Origin: Novipirellula galeiformis
Lineage (GTDB): Bacteria > Planctomycetota > Planctomycetia > Pirellulales > Pirellulaceae
Reading direction: 5' to 3'
Assembly: GCF_007860095.1 (NCBI RefSeq)
Contig: NZ_SJPT01000009.1
Span: 215,793-279,792, forward strand
Length of the DNA stretch: 64,000 nt
Below are positions 24,486 through 31,672 of this stretch, in pieces. The notes under the pieces are model-generated. The model did not search any database. It saw only the letters and a program-made list of their open reading frames with translations, and was not told the origin of the DNA. Each line of letters starts with the position of its first letter. Position 1 is the first letter of the stretch. A program made the position numbers and the translations under genes.

Positions 24486-24838
24486 AGAACAATCCCTAAA
24501 ACCTAATTTTGCAAACGAAAGGGGCACTCGCGGGGTGGGGCAGCATAATTAGGTTTTGCCTTGTGTTGCCAGAGAGACTTGTGTTGCCAGAGAGAATCAG
24601 TGGAGGGAGTTCGGGTTGCAGTTCCCCCCCCTCTTTGCTGCGGAAGCCCCTCTGGATCCCACGTCTGGAATCCACGCCGCTAGCACATTCTATGCCGTGG
24701 GAGCTCTGGCAACAACGAAGGGAGAAACGAAGGGATCTTGACTGCGTGACAAAAAACGCTCCAAATACGCTGGCGGAGGCGTTACAGCGAGTAGCGAAAG
24801 TCACAATTAAGTTTATGATACGCTTCCCGCGTGAGCAC
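24486..24838. promoter_or_regulatory. Phosphatase upstream region with 11-bp inverted repeat and 18-bp duplication
   Basis: AAAACCTAATT (24498-24508) faces AATTAGGTTTT (24547-24557), a perfect 11-bp inverted repeat straddling the 5' side of the phosphatase gene. CTTGTGTTGCCAGAGAGA occurs twice in tandem at 24560-24577 and 24578-24595. No gene is seen between these and tRNA-Gln. Confidence 0.6.
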
Positions 24839-26150
24839 TGCCCCATAGTGTAATTGGCAACACGACAGATTCTGACTCTGTTATTCTAGGTTCAAGTCCT
24901 AGTGGGGCAGCTAACGCCGTTATACACGGTGTTTCTGAGTCATCCACAGCCGGAAACGTGCTGTTTTCGACCGTCGATATCTCCGTGAGGCACGGGGATT
25001 CAGCATGATTTACACCCCTAGTTACACCCCGTTCCCAGTGTTCGTCAGTGACCTGCAAATAATGCTTTGCGGCTGTCTTGCTGGAGTGACCTAGCCAAGC
25101 GTTTATCACATGGTCCGGGTGCTGTTCTTGCAACTCCGTCCGACGCGTAGACCGTAGGTTCTGAAACGTCTTTACCCAAGGCGTCACGCCTGCCGACTCG
25201 ATGACTCGGTTTAATTGCGTCCCAAGGTTCGCAAGTCGATGGTATCGGTGAATGCAGCGGGTCGACCCCTCAGGCCTCTGATCGGACGCCTGTTTGAGAT
25301 ACGGCAATAACTCAGGAAAGATCGGGCACTCTCGCACGCCTGTCTTTGGCGAGTCGATACGCAACCGCCCCTGATTCCACAGTACGTCGTCCCAATTCAG
25401 GGATAGGATCTCACACCGCCGGAGTCCAGCGAATCGAGCAAGGGCGAAGATCAACCGCCACTGAGGGTCAGGGCAGGCCTTCAACACTTTCTTAGCGGTT
25501 GCCGGAGTGATGAAGTGATCCCGATCCCGGTTGACTTCCCCACCTGCCTTGATGTCCTCAAAGGGACTCTCAGTGATCAGGCGAGACTTGACGGCGTGCT
25601 TGAAGATTGTCTTGGCTCTCTTAACCAGCTTCGATACGGTTGATTCTGCCATCGTCTTGGTGGTATTGCCGTCATCGTCCCAAGCAACCGGTCGGGCTAA
25701 TAGCCATCGTCTCCATTGCTCAGCGTCGGCAACCGTGATAGCTGCAATCGGCTTGTGTTCTCCGAAGTGCTCTACCAAGTAGTCTCGGGCGTACTCGTAT
25801 GCATCGACCGTAGACTGTGCGATATCGGTTCGGTCTTCAATATAGGAATCCACAAACGGCTTCAGAAGCCGTGCGGCGTCTCCGTTGACTCGCTTAGCGT
25901 CTATCAAACCGACACGCACCAGCCGCTCGTGTAGCGTACCACTCAAATCGTTAGCCCAGAGAGCGGTCGATGGTTCCGGTTGTCCAGCCGATCGCTTCGC
26001 ACGTACTAACTCTTCAATGTGACGCTTAACGTTCTCGGCACGTCGTTTCTGGTTGTCGGTTAGCCGGATCGAGTGACGCTTACCCTCGTACAGAAACTGC
26101 AGACGCCAATTGATAATCCCGTTGCGTTTTTCCTTACTGATCGACGCCAT
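24813..26150 (-). CDS. Tyrosine recombinase/integrase, tail read through the tRNA gene
   Basis: 445 residues: N-terminal arm-binding part, core-binding SAM-like domain (about 85-190) and catalytic domain (about 205-365). Catalytic residues visible are Arg in FAGLRRCEILSL, Lys in SPKTGV, Arg in FQNLRSTRRTE, His in WLGHSSKTAA and Tyr in KHYLQV. The first His of the usual HxxR box is replaced by Gln (QNLR), as I recall seeing in other planctomycete integrases. The last 27 residues, after APLG, are encoded antisense through tRNA-Gln and host flank. The natural tail is probably the frame at 29916-30112. The start overlaps the excisionase stop by 17 bp. Confidence 0.93.
   Translation of the reverse strand: MASISKEKRNGIINWRLQFLYEGKRHSIRLTDNQKRRAENVKRHIEELVRAKRSAGQPEPSTALWANDLSGTLHERLVRVGLIDAKRVNGDAARLLKPFVDSYIEDRTDIAQSTVDAYEYARDYLVEHFGEHKPIAAITVADAEQWRRWLLARPVAWDDDGNTTKTMAESTVSKLVKRAKTIFKHAVKSRLITESPFEDIKAGGEVNRDRDHFITPATAKKVLKACPDPQWRLIFALARFAGLRRCEILSLNWDDVLWNQGRLRIDSPKTGVRECPIFPELLPYLKQASDQRPEGSTRCIHRYHRLANLGTQLNRVIESAGVTPWVKTFQNLRSTRRTELQEQHPDHVINAWLGHSSKTAAKHYLQVTDEHWERGVTRGVNHAESPCLTEISTVENSTFPAVDDSETPCITALAAPLGLEPRITESESVVLPITLWGSAHAGSVS
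24839..24910 (+). tRNA. tRNA-Gln (CTG anticodon), host attachment site
   Basis: Acceptor TGCCCCA/TGGGGCA, D-arm with AATTGGC, anticodon stem ACAGA/TCTGT around loop TTCTGAC (anticodon CTG), T-arm CTAGGTTCAAGTCCTAG and discriminator G; no encoded CCA. 72 nt. Its last 13 nt belong to the 16-bp att core, so they are supplied by the integrated element. Confidence 0.95.
24898..24913. repeat. attL core (16 bp)
   Basis: CCTAGTGGGGCAGCTA, overlapping the T-stem and acceptor stem of tRNA-Gln plus 3 bp. Identical to 30097-30112. Confidence 0.85.
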
Positions 26151-26400
26151 TCTGTTTCCTCAATGCTGCGACTACTTCGGACGGTTCGTACAATCGCCGG
26201 GTGCCGACTTGGATACTCGGGATTTTGCCTTCACTGCGAAGGCGGTCAATAAAGGGTTTGCTGATCCCTAGCATAGTTGCCAGTTTGGTTGAACTCACCA
26301 GCAAGTGCTGTGTAGCTGGTGGCTCTGGACGCGGTGGCAGCTTCGCAAGGATGGCTTCTGCTATCGCTTCTGCCAATGCTTCTGTGTCGATACTGATCAC
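26134..26400 (-). CDS. Excisionase-like helix-turn-helix protein
   Basis: 88 residues. An N-terminal amphipathic helix (EALAEAIAEAILAKL) is followed by a winged MerR-like DNA-binding domain of the helix_turn_helix_17 type: STKLATMLGISKPFIDRLRSEGKIP and the wing VGTRRLYEPSEVVAAL. Such proteins bind near att sites and steer integrases toward excision, or act as small repressors. It overlaps the integrase start by 17 bp and the upstream gene stop by 4 bp, so the three are co-translated. Confidence 0.85.
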   Translation of the reverse strand: MISIDTEALAEAIAEAILAKLPPRPEPPATQHLLVSSTKLATMLGISKPFIDRLRSEGKIPSIQVGTRRLYEPSEVVAALRKQNGVDQ

Positions 26401-27167
26401 GCCGACACCATCCTTTCGACCGCTTCGATGTCCTTGGCAAGATCCGTAACGCGAACGATGGCGTTTTCACCAATCTTCAATTCCGGCCGATCGCAAAAAC
26501 GAGATTTCATCCTTTTCGGGCCCTTCAAAAACACCGCGTTTTCCGCACTCAAACGGCTCTCGGGATTTTGAATTGTTACACAGCCAGCAGACCCTGGTGT
26601 ATCTACACCAAGAATGGTGTTCGCTCGATTTTCGATCGCTTTCAGACGCTCTCGTTTTGCCTCATTGGCTTTGTCCAGATTGGCACGGCTAGCCGTCGCA
26701 GGCATACGGACGTGAAGCAGGCCGACGTCGAATGAGTCAACCCAAGTCATCGCTCTGACGACTTCAATCGTGACCGCCACCAACGCTCTTGCATGGCGGT
26801 TCCCTACTGTCTTGTGGAAGTTGATCTCGATTCGGTCGAGAGACGAACGGCGACCACTGACGCGGTCTAGCCATCGATCAACGTCAATCGAGGAAGGTGG
26901 GGCACATTCGAGGATATCCAAGCAGCAACAACAGAGGTTGCTGGCTCGAAGGGCGGCGTCAATGCGGCGGGTAGCCGACCGGCTGGCTTTAGCTTCGGTT
27001 TGCTTTTGTAGCCAAGTGAGGTTGGCTTGAAGATTAGACAGGGTTTGTTTACGCGATAGCACTGAATCGGATTCCAGAGAGAGAACCCACAACGACGAAA
27101 TTGTCTGTGGGTTCTCGTCCGATTCGTCAGACGTCCGTCTGTACGCGAGAAGTTTTAGCAATAGCAT
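26397..27167 (-). CDS. Unknown element-encoded protein
   Basis: 256 codons, coupled to the excisionase by a 4-bp ATGA overlap. I do not recognise the family. It has a run of four cysteines (SNLCCCCLDILEC near residue 95), a basic region before it and a KANEAKRERLKAIENRAN helix that may be a coiled coil. No membrane segment. The upstream start at 27167 is the first ATG and has only a weak ribosome site, so a shorter protein is possible. Position suggests a regulator or replication-linked protein, without support from motifs. Confidence 0.65.
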   Translation of the reverse strand: MLLLKLLAYRRTSDESDENPQTISSLWVLSLESDSVLSRKQTLSNLQANLTWLQKQTEAKASRSATRRIDAALRASNLCCCCLDILECAPPSSIDVDRWLDRVSGRRSSLDRIEINFHKTVGNRHARALVAVTIEVVRAMTWVDSFDVGLLHVRMPATASRANLDKANEAKRERLKAIENRANTILGVDTPGSAGCVTIQNPESRLSAENAVFLKGPKRMKSRFCDRPELKIGENAIVRVTDLAKDIEAVERMVSA

Positions 27168-27972
27168 CGGCCATCGCAGGTGGTCAAATTCTAACCGTCT
27201 CCGACGGATGCCGAGATGGCACGAAGGCTTAACCCTATAGGGGATGAACGCTCAATCTCGATAGACCCCAGTATAGTCCGCGAACAATCGATTGCAACAG
27301 ATTCCTAGCCTCTTACAGCAGCTTGTTGTACCGGAGCCCCTTCAACCTGAATTACTGATGCAACCCGCAACGAGAGACTGAAGCCGGAGTCTGCAGCCGG
27401 GAGCCTTTAGGGAAAACAACAAGCCGTTACAGTCAGTTTCACGTGTTTTGCAGGCTAAATCGAGATTAGGGCCGATTTTCGCAAAACAAGTCCCTCTATA
27501 AAAGATCTCTCTACTACTTACTAACTTTCCTACCGTAGGTTTATTTGAAGAAAACACCCCAAAACGGGATCTAGACCGCAAATTACGTGAAACGCGTTTT
27601 GACGATTTTGCCCTCCTTGTAGGGGGCTTGCGGCGATTCTCGCCAGCTTCTCTAGGGCCGAACTATTAACTTGTTCGCGACTGCTGCGGTTTTGGACGAG
27701 AATCTTGCGAAATTCAAAATATATTTCTGAGTCACCGGAGCCCCTGAGCCTAATGGTCCTGGGAACGCCGGACTGGATGCCCCTCTTGAGGGTGGCTTGA
27801 TCCCCGTGGTGCATGTGACTCCGGCAACTCTCTCACGGTTAGGCCGACCGTAGTCCATAGACTTTAACGCAGCCGCTGCCTCCCCTATCAATTTCAAGAA
27901 TTCTCGATTTATTTCAATGCTCACGAACAAGTTGTAGTTAGAGAAATAACAACACACTATTCGGGAATTTAA
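27168..27972. other. 805-bp divergent control region of the element
   Basis: Lies between leftward int-xis genes and rightward small genes, the usual place for a genetic switch and perhaps an origin. AT-richer than the host. Open frames on the minus strand here (for example 27652-27978) have no ribosome site or recognisable domain. I cannot define promoters or operators. Confidence 0.5.
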
Positions 27973-28428
27973 ATGCAACGAGTACTAACGATCGACGGAG
28001 ACCCAAAGTCTCTTGCTCAATGGGCATATGCAACGGGTAACTCATACGGGTTGATCTACAATCGACTGCTAGCCGGTTGGACCGACAAGGACGCGGTCTA
28101 CGGGAAGCAGACCGGGCCGAAACTCACAGTAGACGGTGTCACGCATTCCGTCTCTGAATGGGCGAAAATTACAGGGACTGATTACAAAACGATCTACTGC
28201 CGATCGTACCAAGGCTGGAACGACAAGGACGCAGTCTACGGTAAGGATCAACCAAAACACGCTCTCACAATCAACGGCGTGACGCGATCAATCGTAGAAT
28301 GGGCGAAGATCTCAGGCCAGAGTTACGGCCTGATTCACTCGCGAGTCCGCGCAGGCTGGAACGACGAAGACGCGGTCTGTGGGAAGGGCCGCAAGCTGAG
28401 CGTCGAAACCCTACTGGGAGCTAAGTGA
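27973..28428 (+). CDS. Three-repeat, probably DNA-binding, phage-type protein
   Basis: 151 residues made of three ~46-residue repeats, each of the pattern LTIDG-x-SL-x-WA-x-TG-x-SY-x-IYxR-x-GW-x-DAVYGK. Visible copies are LAQWAYATGNSYGLIYNRLL, VSEWAKITGTDYKTIYCRSY and IVEWAKISGQSYGLIHSRVR. The eWa..tG...tI..R...Gw pattern occurs in many phage proteins and looks like a helix-turn-helix, often found with homing endonucleases. Three in tandem suggest binding to a repeated or long DNA site. First gene of a two-gene rightward operon; next start is 4 bp after its stop. Confidence 0.75.
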   Translation: MQRVLTIDGDPKSLAQWAYATGNSYGLIYNRLLAGWTDKDAVYGKQTGPKLTVDGVTHSVSEWAKITGTDYKTIYCRSYQGWNDKDAVYGKDQPKHALTINGVTRSIVEWAKISGQSYGLIHSRVRAGWNDEDAVCGKGRKLSVETLLGAK

Positions 28429-28431
28429 GTT

Positions 28432-28677
28432 ATGACGGAACCAAAGTACACTTTGCTGAGTGACCAAGCCAAGGCCGATGCAGCTGCAGCCGCTGAGGCT
28501 GCCGCTGAGAAAGCTTTCAGGGAGCGTATATCCCGCCAAGAGAAAGCGAAAGCCGTGTCCCGTCGTACGGCTCTTGAGCGAGCCGAAACGTGTTCAATGG
28601 AGGAATACCTCGCGAATCGTTCGCAGTTCCGCAGAGACATCGGCTGCAATGACAATGACTACGGGTTGCGTCAATAA
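28432..28677 (+). CDS. Small Ala-rich helical protein
   Basis: 81 residues. It contains KADAAAAAEAAAEKAFRERI and KAKAVSRRTALERAETCSM, strongly helical and likely coiled coil. No family recognised. It starts 4 bp after the repeat protein and must be translated with it. Typical of small accessory proteins of phages and satellites. Confidence 0.6.
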   Translation: MTEPKYTLLSDQAKADAAAAAEAAAEKAFRERISRQEKAKAVSRRTALERAETCSMEEYLANRSQFRRDIGCNDNDYGLRQ

Positions 28678-29416
28678 TCGGTGCCTGTTTCCTAAGCAAT
28701 TCATATTGCCCAAGCGGGCAACACGTTAAACGCAACGTTTCTTGCCTATCCGGTGCAACGTAGCGCAAGTTATCGGACGTTGACAGACTGCCCAACACGT
28801 TCCGGCCTCCCAATCGGCAGTGTCAACGCATCCGGGAATGCCAGAAGAGGGAATATTCAGCTCAGGATATCGCCTTGGTGACAAGGTATCTCAATCTACA
28901 ATCCGCCTTCCCCGTTGCAGTGTCCCAGACCCGCCGTGACGCAGCGAGAAACCCGTCATTGTCCCATGTTGCTGCTATCCGGAACCGCACGAAACCCTAC
29001 GGCCGTAGGTTTCCGTTCTCCCACTTGCAACGCCCCTGCAGTTATCCCAAGCGTTGCCGCTGCGTCCGCTGCTCGGGCGATACGGATTGCTTGTGTGATC
29101 CGGGCAGGCCTAGTTGAACCGCCGTTCCAACCGGATACCACAGATACGCAAATTGCCACTTCAGTACGAACAGAAGGACCCATCCGGCTGCCGGTGCGGC
29201 CGTGCTTCCCGTGCCGGCTGCCCCGCTAACGGTTCAGCGGTGTTCGGCCTTGCGTGCTGTAGCGGGTGGACGGGTCGGGGTGCTCGTAGGGGGCGGGAGG
29301 GTTTTGAAGGCGGGGTGATGTGAACCGGCATCCTGTGGCATAAGGGCGGCCGTACCCTCTCACGAGTATGGCTACCGATTCGCTAATCACAGAACTATCG
29401 CGACCTCTACAAAAGA
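28678..29416. other. 739-bp non-coding stretch inside the element
   Basis: Contains a perfect 14-bp palindrome CCTACGGCCGTAGG at 28996-29009, flanked by GAAA and TTTC. Several frames are open but rich in Cys/Arg/Pro and without ribosome sites. No gene is called. Confidence 0.5.
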
Positions 29417-29800
29417 CTAGTTCTCGCCACCTGTTTCCCCCGTCCAAGAATCGAGAACGGCTCTACCGAAATTTGTAGATATTCGGATTGCGAAAAGCTC
29501 TCGTCCATAATCTTTGGACGATGCTAGACAATTGGAGATACCTCTCGAAAGATTCACCCCTTCGGCCATGGTTTCGAAAGAGCCATAGGTCACCTCTTTA
29601 TATTCGTTGGGCGAACCAAGCGTTAGTTGATCAGGACGAATGATGGAATCCCAACGCTCGCAATTTGCATCTCGGAAATCGGAGTGACGATAACCTGTGC
29701 CGAAGCCGAGATTGTAGGGGTAGCTCTGGGTGAGCGGCTTCCAAACACTTGGAGGAAGAAGTACCTCGACGTAGAACGCATCGCTTCTGTTTTCTGCCAT
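29417..29800 (-). CDS. Unknown protein near the right end of the element
   Basis: 127 residues from ATG at 29798-29800, which has a strong ribosome site (AGGAG, 8 bases upstream) that decides the start over an upstream ATG at 29923. Begins MAENRSDAFYVEVLLPPS. It is soluble, with no membrane helix, and contains WDSIIRPDQLTLGSPNEYK and RELFAIRISTNFGRAVLD. No family recognised. A gene with its own strong start beside the att site is in the usual cargo position. Confidence 0.65.
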   Translation of the reverse strand: MAENRSDAFYVEVLLPPSVWKPLTQSYPYNLGFGTGYRHSDFRDANCERWDSIIRPDQLTLGSPNEYKEVTYGSFETMAEGVNLSRGISNCLASSKDYGRELFAIRISTNFGRAVLDSWTGETGGEN

Positions 29801-29915
29801 TTTATTGGCTCCTGTCGTATGCGTCCCCCACCAAGACGTATACATGCTGAAAATTCTACCTGTGGATGAGGGATTACGCAAGCTCTTGGAACTTGCCATG
29901 CGAAATGGGGGGATT

Positions 29916-30112
29916 CTAGCCATTTGTTGTAGGCTTATTCTTTGCGGCGAATTGTCGAGCGGTTGCTAGTACGTGAGCTTGTTCAGGTGCAGACAGACGC
30001 TTCCAGATCGCGAGCAACTCAGACAATGACACCCCAGAGTACACCCCAGAATCCGGAAACCGCCAAAAACACGGGCTTTTTGGTGATTGTTCGCTCCCTA
30101 GTGGGGCAGCTA
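29916..30112 (-). other. Orphan C-terminal tail of the integrase (attP side)
   Basis: An open frame continuous with the integrase frame if the element is circularised through its 16-bp core. It reads from the core as LGSEQSPKSPCFWRFPDSG and then LSELLAIWKRLSAPEQAHVL ATARQFAAKNKP, ending at 29916. Here it has no proper start of its own (an ATG at 30137 lies in host-side sequence). The helical ELLAIWKRLS-type ending looks like real protein. See findings. Confidence 0.7.
30097..30112. repeat. attR core (16 bp)
   Basis: CCTAGTGGGGCAGCTA, identical to 24898-24913 and exactly 5199 bp from it. Confidence 0.85.
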
Positions 30113-30363
30113 GCCGAAATCCCGTTAAGGGCCACAAGTCGGCATAACACGTCTTTTGCCGCGTTTTCCAGCGTGTCTTTCGAAAGGCCCTCTGCCCTTA
30201 AAGAGTCCTGAAGACTCTTGATGTCGGAAATCGGGTGTAGATTCTGGTGTAACTTCTCGCCCTTTACACCACCCCAGACCCCCGTTGCCCCCTCTCGGCT
30301 CGCCCCCCTCTCGGCTCGCCCGCTCGAAAGAGTCTTCCTTTGCCATAGCGTCGTGCTTCATGG
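30113..30363 (-). pseudogene. Host-side gene broken by a 16-bp tandem duplication
   Basis: The N-terminal frame (MKHDAMAKEDSFERASREG from about 30363) and the downstream frame (GEKLHQNLHPISDIKSLQDS, AEGLSKDTLENAAKDVLCRL, VALNGIS) differ by one base. Between them CCTCTCGGCTCGCCCC is duplicated in tandem (30291-30306, 30307-30322). Removing one 16-bp copy joins the two frames into one plausible protein. The gene runs toward the att site; before integration it would have ended in the antisense of tRNA-Gln. No family recognised. Confidence 0.45.
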
Positions 30364-30749
30364 CCACGGGGTCACTGTTTCTGATCCTGCTTGCAACAGG
30401 AAGCGTCCCAATCATTGTTGAAAGATGGTCTCCCGGAGAGCTGACTCTGCCTCTCCGCAACTTTCCAATTTTCGTCGGCTGCAACCGACGGGGAGACCAT
30501 CATGAATGAAGTTAGTCTTTTAGAATCACTCGGGCAAGTTTCAGCCTCGGTGAACCGATCAAAAGGTTTCCGGACTGAATCACGAGTCACCGGCACGATA
30601 CCCTAGAGTGAAGCGGCGTTGGCAGAGTCCGCCGCAGCGGGCTTTTTCTGTTACCAGGAAGTCCGCCACATTCTTCGGTAAGATGGCGGCACTCCATATT
30701 CACCGTGCATACTTCCACGCATCGGAGCGAAGCGACTTCTCATGTGCAT
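30364..30749. other. Intergenic before the hairpin array
   Basis: No gene recognised. Mixed-composition sequence leading into the tandem array. Confidence 0.4.
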
Positions 30750-31672
30750 GGGTTTGGCAGAATGATTGTTCGGCAAAATGATTTCCAAGATGGAGGCGGC
30801 TTGGGTTTTAAATCATTTTGCCCGTCAATCATTTTGCCAACTTTCATCGCCGTAAGTGGTCATCCGCGGTTCTCGTATGCGTGGGTTTGGCAGAATGATT
30901 GTTCGGCAAAATGATTTCCAGGATCGACGCGGTCGGGTCTAAAATCATTTTGCCCGTCAAACATTTTGCCAACTTTCATCGCCGTAAGTGGTCATCCGCG
31001 GTTCTCGTGTGCGTGGGTTTGGCAGGATGATTGTTCGGCAAAATGATTTCCAGGATCGAGCGGCTTGGGTTTTAAATCATTTTGCCCGTCAATCATTTTG
31101 CCAACTTTCATCGCCGTAAGTGGTCATCCGCGTTTCTCGTGTGCATGGGTTTGGCAGAATGATTATTCGGCAAAATGATTTCCAGGATGGAGGCGGCTTG
31201 GGTCTAAAATTATTTTGCCCGTCAATCATTTTGCCAACTTTCATCGCCGTAAGTGGTCATCCGCGGTTCTCGTGTGCATGGGTTTGGCAGAATGATTATT
31301 CGGCAAAATGATTTCCAGGATCGAGGCGGTTGGGTTTTAAATCGTTTTGCCCGTCAATCATTTTGCCAACTTTCATCGCCGTAAGTGGTCATCCGCGGTT
31401 CTCGTGTGCGTGGGTTTGGCAGAATGATTGTTCGGCAAAATGATTTCCAGGATCGAGGCGGTCGGGTCTAAAATCATTTTGCCCGTCGATCATTTTGCCA
31501 ACTTTCATCGCCGTAAGTGGTCATCCGCGGTTCTCATGTGCATGGGTTTGGCAGAATGATTATTCGGCAAGATGATTTCCAGGATGGAGGCGGCTTGGGT
31601 TTTAAATCATTTTGCCCGCCAATCATTTTGCCAATTTTCATTACCGCAAGTGGTCATCCACGGTTCTCATGT
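30750..31672. repeat. Seven-unit 132-bp tandem array of nested hairpins
   Basis: Units begin (at GGGTTTGGCAGAATGAT or variants) near 30750, 30883, 31015, 31147, 31280, 31412 and 31544, period 132-133. In each, TTGGCAGAATGATT and GGCAAAATGATTT on the left face AAATCATTTTGCC and AATCATTTTGCCAA on the right, with matching 4-nt interruptions (gttc/cgtc). This gives a foldback with ~31-nt arms and a ~25-nt loop. The rest of the unit (CTTTCATCGCCGTAAGTGG...) is conserved but not folded. ATG-started frames inside are repeat translations and are not called. Confidence 0.95.

Follow-up and report, generated by a model that had tools for sequence, protein, structure and literature searches.

A planctomycete tyrosine integrase gene with a probable attP near its 3′ end and a conserved C-terminal module that integration would detach

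Some integrase genes extend across the attachment site (att) of their own element, attP, as is described for phage Mx8 and the SSV viruses (PMC4383910). In Mx8 attP lies within int, whose 3′ end is replaced on integration; this is reported to modify the specificity of Int without inactivating it (PMC6070905). In the SSV-type "suicidal" integrases the att site also lies in the gene, often at a tRNA gene, and integration splits this gene; the 2021 review that describes them regards self-disrupting recombinases as confined to archaea (PMC8371274). Here we describe a small integrative element of Novipirellula galeiformis (Planctomycetota), found in a stretch of 64,000 nucleotides of contig NZ_SJPT01000009.1 (below, the window), whose lambda-type tyrosine integrase gene appears to hold attP near its 3′ end. 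We estimate the probability at about 0.87 that this is a structural exchange, in which integration detaches a tail module from the integrase and excision would rejoin it. The principle is already known from Mx8 and SSV, while the planctomycete setting with a conserved removable module appears to be new. No planctomycete report of tail loss through an attP in the integrase was found among the titles and abstract openings listed, a coverage that mostly leaves out subscription papers.

The element spans about 5.2 kb and is sited at the 3′ end of tRNA-Gln(CTG) (Table 1). Its two att cores are copies of CCTAGTGGGGCAGCTA spaced 5199 bp apart. When up to two mismatches are permitted, only these two matches occur in the window (mean for shuffled sequence 0.02), and the first 14 bp of CCTAGTGGGGCAGCTA are present at two sites only across the 7.4-Mb assembly. 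The coordinates of the repeat and of the open reading frame (ORF) agree with the initial annotation, which had placed a 16-bp core inside the integrase frame with its copies 5199 bp apart. This distance is indeed a multiple of 3, as was pointed out there, but that has no relevance to the frame, because the frame in the circle depends only on the position within the core.

The window integrase belongs to the tyrosine recombinases by its match to Phage_integrase, PF00589 (Pfam E 9.6e-12, beyond the cut-off). Residues R244, K269, R333 and Y364, which we take to be the catalytic ones, are invariant in an alignment of 15 integrases. The core follows the conserved Tyr 364 of 445 residues. Since integration cuts the gene after this residue, the catalytic domain would be whole in both states and, unlike in SSV, is not split from the N-terminal part. 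The SSV gene is described as falling into two parts, both inactive, of which the C-terminal part holds the catalytic domain, whereas in the window integrase this domain is kept together. The window integrase instead resembles that of Mx8 in having the core of attP within its own coding frame and in that, judged by sequence, the free and integrated C-termini differ around an intact catalytic part; the same was found in the viral pair L206/L208 described below.

How do the two C-termini differ? In the integrated state the frame of the integrase passes over the core at attL, then continues antisense through tRNA-Gln and beyond it. The initial annotation had reported this run, giving 27 residues; we counted 28, the longest end among 34 integrases counted. 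In 33 of these 34 the integrated form has 1–28 residues past the core (median 8), and the one negative value is an integrase stopping before the core. If the circle is closed at the core, the integrase frame adds 60 residues before a stop and the other two frames at most 25, in accord with the continuation into 29916-30112 that had been proposed; there the same frame is open across the second copy of the core, and its final residues are ...LATARQFAAKNKPTTNG. The C-terminus is thus predicted to be altered by integration, as was claimed, whereas the idea that both forms stay full length did not hold up. Because the antisense end is unconserved and usually short (median 8 residues), the integrated form is, on sequence grounds, a truncation with one domain removed and not an exchange of two functional tails.

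The circle gene would accordingly read catalytic domain, disordered linker and small helical C-terminal module, and in the linker DNA the core, which derives from the tRNA, would stand between the repeat pairs of the P and P′ arms. The gene would be severed within this linker when the element recombines with the tRNA-Gln 3′ end: the catalytic domain would remain at attL, ending in antisense tRNA sequence, and the module would be stranded at attR. Excision would rejoin the two. Both protein forms are presumably made. The evidence for the exchange comes from the att cores, the two frames, the conservation of the module, natural fused forms and the recurrence of the arrangement at many tRNA genes.

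The fused form was seen directly in viral contigs. We examined 40 IMG/VR loci with related integrases, and in four of them, representing two distinct integrases (L201/L202 and L207/L208), integrase and tail form a single ORF. The contigs of L207 and L208 (35,729 and 35,701 bp) have 7540 bp in common at 100% identity, and since this identical segment stands at different contig positions, the two suggest a circularly permuted, free genome. Their relative L206, in the integrated state, is 81.8% identical to L208 at the DNA level over 1300 bp, and this identity ends at the last base of the core GGGATTCGAACC. Past GGGATTCGAACC, L206 continues into tRNA-Ser(GCT) and L208 into the tail.

The window integrase was also searched against 241 genomes of the same family, with matches in 202. 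From the 150 integrase places listed we took 80, favouring high rank and long contigs (at most 20 kb each), which with the window gave 81 integrase ORFs. A second core copy of at least 13 bp upstream was present in 38 of them, window included, and these att pairs allowed the tail to be read beyond attR. The integrase frame past the attR core is open for at least 40 residues in 35 of the 38 (median 61.5), compared with 13 of 76 for the other two frames. Leave-one-out profiles recognized 32 of the 38 tails at E<1e-3; a match to one of the five alternative frames occurred in only two of the 38. Here the pair L079/L099 was removed jointly, and other relatives were kept in. The consensus of the tail motif is ELLaIWerLd...RadLLavARgl, and its helical motif reads SLSELLAIWKRL... 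In eight pairs of aligned tail DNA the differences fall at codon positions 1, 2 and 3 in the numbers 60, 46 and 106, and the ratio of nonsynonymous to synonymous substitution rates (dN/dS) is 0.15–0.67 in the 9 pairs, from 10 similar ones, for which it could be calculated. By these measures the tail evolves as coding sequence and is to be regarded as a real protein module.

The AlphaFold model of the naturally fused L201 has a mostly confident body, followed by residues 387-458 with predicted local distance difference test (pLDDT) values below 50, a disordered linker which encodes the att DNA, and by three short C-terminal helices within residues 454-489 (block means 46, 61, 73 and 70). The best Foldseek matches of this model are the Tn1549 and lambda integrases, which share its fold and are also matched by sequence profile. 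We know of no description of the Tn1549 or lambda att sites as crossing the 3′ end of int into a detachable domain.

The DNA of the linker is patterned as well. Paired 9-bp direct repeats with a 12-bp period and a match of at least 8/9 lie before the core in 30 of the 38 elements and after it in 31, mostly 105–145 bp before and 40–70 bp after the core, with exceptions; the period is 13 in two elements of each set. The two sides of the same element match over at least 11 bp in 26/38, compared with 55/1406 for pairs taken across elements; in the window the longest match between the sides is 8 bp, under this threshold. These repeats are probably arm-type sites, and because such pairs flank the core, attP seems to lie inside the integrase gene. 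On the strand of the tRNA there is a further signal. In 41 of the 68 integrase ORFs that overlap a tRNA (window not included), a hairpin followed by T residues scores better than all 20 mononucleotide shuffles, and the strong terminator-like hairpins (L069-L148 set, for example L070, L072, L076 and L081) often begin about 25–50 nt past the tRNA, within the integrase coding sequence. They may replace the terminator that integration displaces from the tRNA gene.

The same repeats suggest the most serious alternative, namely that the tail is conserved as DNA only, being the P′ arm of attP and open by chance, so that integration trims a dispensable end. Repeat pairs do lie near the beginning of the tail and resemble those on the other side of the core, in the proportions just given. 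In addition, 28 of the 40 viral relatives have at most 60 residues after the catalytic Tyr; the tail is thus not needed by all, and a tail-less enzyme plausibly works. But the helical motif lies past the repeats, the leave-one-out profiles recognize the tail at the protein level, and the differences between tails are mostly at third codon positions. We consider this explanation unlikely.

Where do the detached tails lie? A profile built from 28 tails found matches in 125 of the 241 family genomes (E<=0.01) and in 48 of 392 genomes across the phylum (E<=1e-5). Most of the matches listed are short free-standing frames, commonly of 60–200 amino acids. The top 79 family matches comprise 32 without a listed integrase on the contig and eight with none within 40 kb. 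In the remaining 39 the tail is on the strand of the integrase, upstream of it in 37 and just downstream in two (G146, where the elements are in tandem, and G075, where the tail is a frame apart), and never on the opposite strand. The search for the tail peptide that the initial annotation had proposed located it on the strand of the integrase at the distal end of related elements, where the circle model predicts it, besides its fusion to integrases in viral contigs. The window genome itself carries two further elements of this kind, each with a circle tail of 64 residues. One, on contig 2 in tRNA-Arg, spans 22,981 bp and has a 14-bp core; the other, on contig 5, spans 5,290 bp and has a 55-bp core that we read as tRNA-Leu-like (no ARAGORN call). 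In G177:C118 (L183) a decayed integrase end is followed by a tRNA-Gln-like core and then a tail, which lends weak support only.

The abundance of free-standing frames could also mean that the ORF on the attR side is an independent small gene, for example for an excision factor, which has lost its start in this copy. However, integration itself predicts such free-standing matches, and the viral contigs carry fused ORFs. An ATG-encoded Met is present within the first 25 residues past the core in just 2 of 34 cases (GTG and TTG were not counted). Neither a separate tail gene with its own start nor a core whose extent breaks the frame, both raised earlier as possible objections, was seen, the frame past the core being open in nearly all att pairs. 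We regard an independent gene as very improbable.

Antisense tRNA was found at the 3′ end of 73 of the 81 integrase ORFs and overlapped the ORF in 68, and the target genes include those for Gln, Glu, Lys, Arg, Val, Met, Asn, Leu and Ser. A second set, the 80 best of 388 named loci, came from genomes partly common to the first set and included Rhodopirellula, Roseimaritima, Stieleria, Rubripirellula, Adhaeretor, Lacipirellula, Phycisphaerae metagenome-assembled genomes and others; the search that supplied it yielded loci of Rhodopirellula solitaria and Roseimaritima sediminicola. In 68 of the 80 the integrase ORF overlaps a tRNA on the opposite strand, in 3 it stops a little short of one, in 7 neither is the case and in 2 the ORF runs off the contig; the tail profile found no fusion of integrase and tail in any of the 80. 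This recurrence in many related elements suggests that the state of the element, free or inserted, is recorded in the form of the enzyme. One fixed reading frame for all tRNA ends was considered and rejected, as the overlapping cases divide into 35, 26 and 7 among the three frames (ARAGORN tRNA ends). In genome contigs scanned with the window integrase alone no relative was confirmed, but the alignment of 15 integrases did find relatives; the plasmid and phage collections held distant integrases only, at most 33% identical.

That the element integrated into a tRNA gene in the ordinary way, its integrase running into the tRNA by chance and without biological meaning, is hardly credible: the intD stop of DLP12 in Escherichia coli, about 15 bp from argU, does show that integrases pointing at a tRNA can end nearby, but overlap is the rule in our loci (68/81 and 68/80), the conserved attR continuation would be unexpected by chance, and none of three E. 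coli K-12 prophages overlaps, a single-case control since only the DLP12 integrase points at its tRNA.

Several observations count against the detachable module. No exact empty site of the window element was found; one congener has an element-free tRNA-Gln that matches the left side of the window only and not its right flank. Nor was a junction of the circle seen for the window element itself. Of the 81 loci, 43 gave no att pair, 8 having no tRNA call and 35 no repeat of at least 13 bp in the stretch examined. The leave-one-out profile failed for L078, L115, L116, L119, L136 (narrowly, E 0.0012) and L147, and four of these (L078, L116, L119 and L147) have an integrase frame that ends short of the core. 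For the two closest tail pairs dN/dS is 0.59 and 0.66, which is mild constraint only, and the tail helices of the L201 model are of low to moderate confidence. In L199 and L203 the frame passes a core-like stretch into ends which the tail profile does not recognize. The module is out of frame beside the integrase in L214 and L319, and on the opposite strand from it in L235.

Mx8 is the closest precedent and was missing from the initial annotation, which had correctly named SSV as a case of attP inside a gene. In Mx8 the MerR-like gene uoi overlaps the annotated start of int, as the HTH_17 ORF overlaps the start of the window integrase. By our reading Mx8 Int has a tRNA-like TGLEP stretch at its core, and before the core its coding sequence contains a paired direct repeat with an 11-bp period. 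A principle similar to that of Mx8 has been reported for Mx9. BLASTP of Mx8 Int with the integrases of the window, L201 and L207 gave nothing below E 0.05 (best 0.099), and the tail profile did not match the Mx8 tail, its sole match in Mx8 Int lying at residues 105-118 and being weak (E 0.017 for the whole protein, 0.061 for the domain). The window system would thus work like Mx8, but with such values a relationship beyond the superfamily is not supported. Unlike Mx8, the planctomycete elements use many tRNA genes, and the detached part is a module conserved across a phylum.

The integrated form of Mx8 Int is said to have lower activity. By analogy with Mx8, the planctomycete exchange may be a functional switch, the full form favouring integration and the truncated form being less active or different; we give this about even odds. 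A broader proposal, to which we would commit slightly less, is that of a phylum-wide family of planctomycete integrases with a detachable C-terminal state sensor. The full enzyme would exist only in the circle and promote the element's capture by a tRNA gene, and integration would leave a quieter or excision-biased enzyme; the linker would serve at once as peptide, as attP (core plus both arms) and, on the opposite strand in many elements, as a substitute terminator for the tRNA gene that was invaded.

In such a system a DNA rearrangement rewrites the enzyme that causes it, for which the bacterial precedents found are phages Mx8 and Mx9. Among the integrases examined the tail-less state is usual across many Planctomycetota and many tRNA genes. 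If the exchange is real, many planctomycete integrases in genomes are truncated forms, and a lone tail marks attR, a useful handle on the ends of elements. The directionality of the integrase also becomes testable with natural pairs having and lacking the tail.

Table 1. Features of the element and its host site, in window positions
Feature	Positions	Strand	Remarks
tRNA-Gln(CTG), target gene	24839-24911	+	3′ end supplies the core
attL core	24898-24913		16 bp, perfect repeat CCTAGTGGGGCAGCTA
attR core	30097-30112		16 bp, CCTAGTGGGGCAGCTA; marks right end of element
Tyrosine integrase ORF, integrated form	24813-26150	-	445 amino acids; invariant Tyr at residue 364, before the core
Host-derived 28-residue integrase end	24813-24897	-	antisense of tRNA-Gln and preceding DNA
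Stranded coding sequence of predicted circle-form tail	29916-30096	-	conserved module
Putative P-arm pair	25012-25030	-	two GGGGTGT repeats (25012, 25024), 12-bp period, inside integrase ORF
Putative P′-arm pair	30029-30047	-	two GGGGTGT repeats (30029, 30041), 12-bp period, inside tail coding sequence
Weak hairpin and T-rich stretch	24915-24939	+	just past tRNA-Gln, on the other strand of the integrase ORF; no better than chance, 4/20 shuffles reaching its score
HTH_17 / excisionase-like ORF	26134-26400	-	overlaps integrase start
ORF within element	27973-28428	+	resembles phage HNH-endonuclease family phrog_3377 (1e-24)
ORF just inside attR	29417-29923	-	no Pfam or PHROG match

Peptides like the tail were also met outside the integrases. 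A protein kinase of 498 amino acids (L180 7331-8824, genome G202) ends in a peptide like the integrase tail, and a frame of 488 amino acids in G201 (L181 8394-9857) has an end near-identical to that of the kinase, so that the helical module may extend beyond integrases. Long open frames near tail matches were considered as fused integrases and rejected: that of G202 is this kinase, and those of G112 and G051 have no Pfam family. In the window genome there are two lone tails of the DVSEAVGA type, at G000:C12:117632-117796 and G000:C2:668829-668987 (L184, L186), with no integrase recognized within the 20 kb fetched. In L072 (G146:C3) an integrase frame of 627 amino acids (957-2840) overruns the tail of an apparent neighbouring tandem element, in another frame.

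Within the genus, the tRNA-Gln of the window is shared with two congeners at 97.6–97.7% identity, and the left flanks are alike. More than one kind of element seems to use this site, since in one genome of the genus (G002:C511; L006, L010) an integrase 34% identical to that of the window adjoins the same tRNA-Gln. In another (G001:C33), positions 1001-1618 of L040 are 85.8% identical to 29418-30036 of the window; this locus is a decayed remnant, with an internal stop in the tail and no integrase match among those listed for that contig. Just outside attR, at 30737-31000, the window holds repeats of 66 and 63 nt (95% and 90% identical) at a spacing of 132–133 bp, together with inverted repeats of 31 nt.

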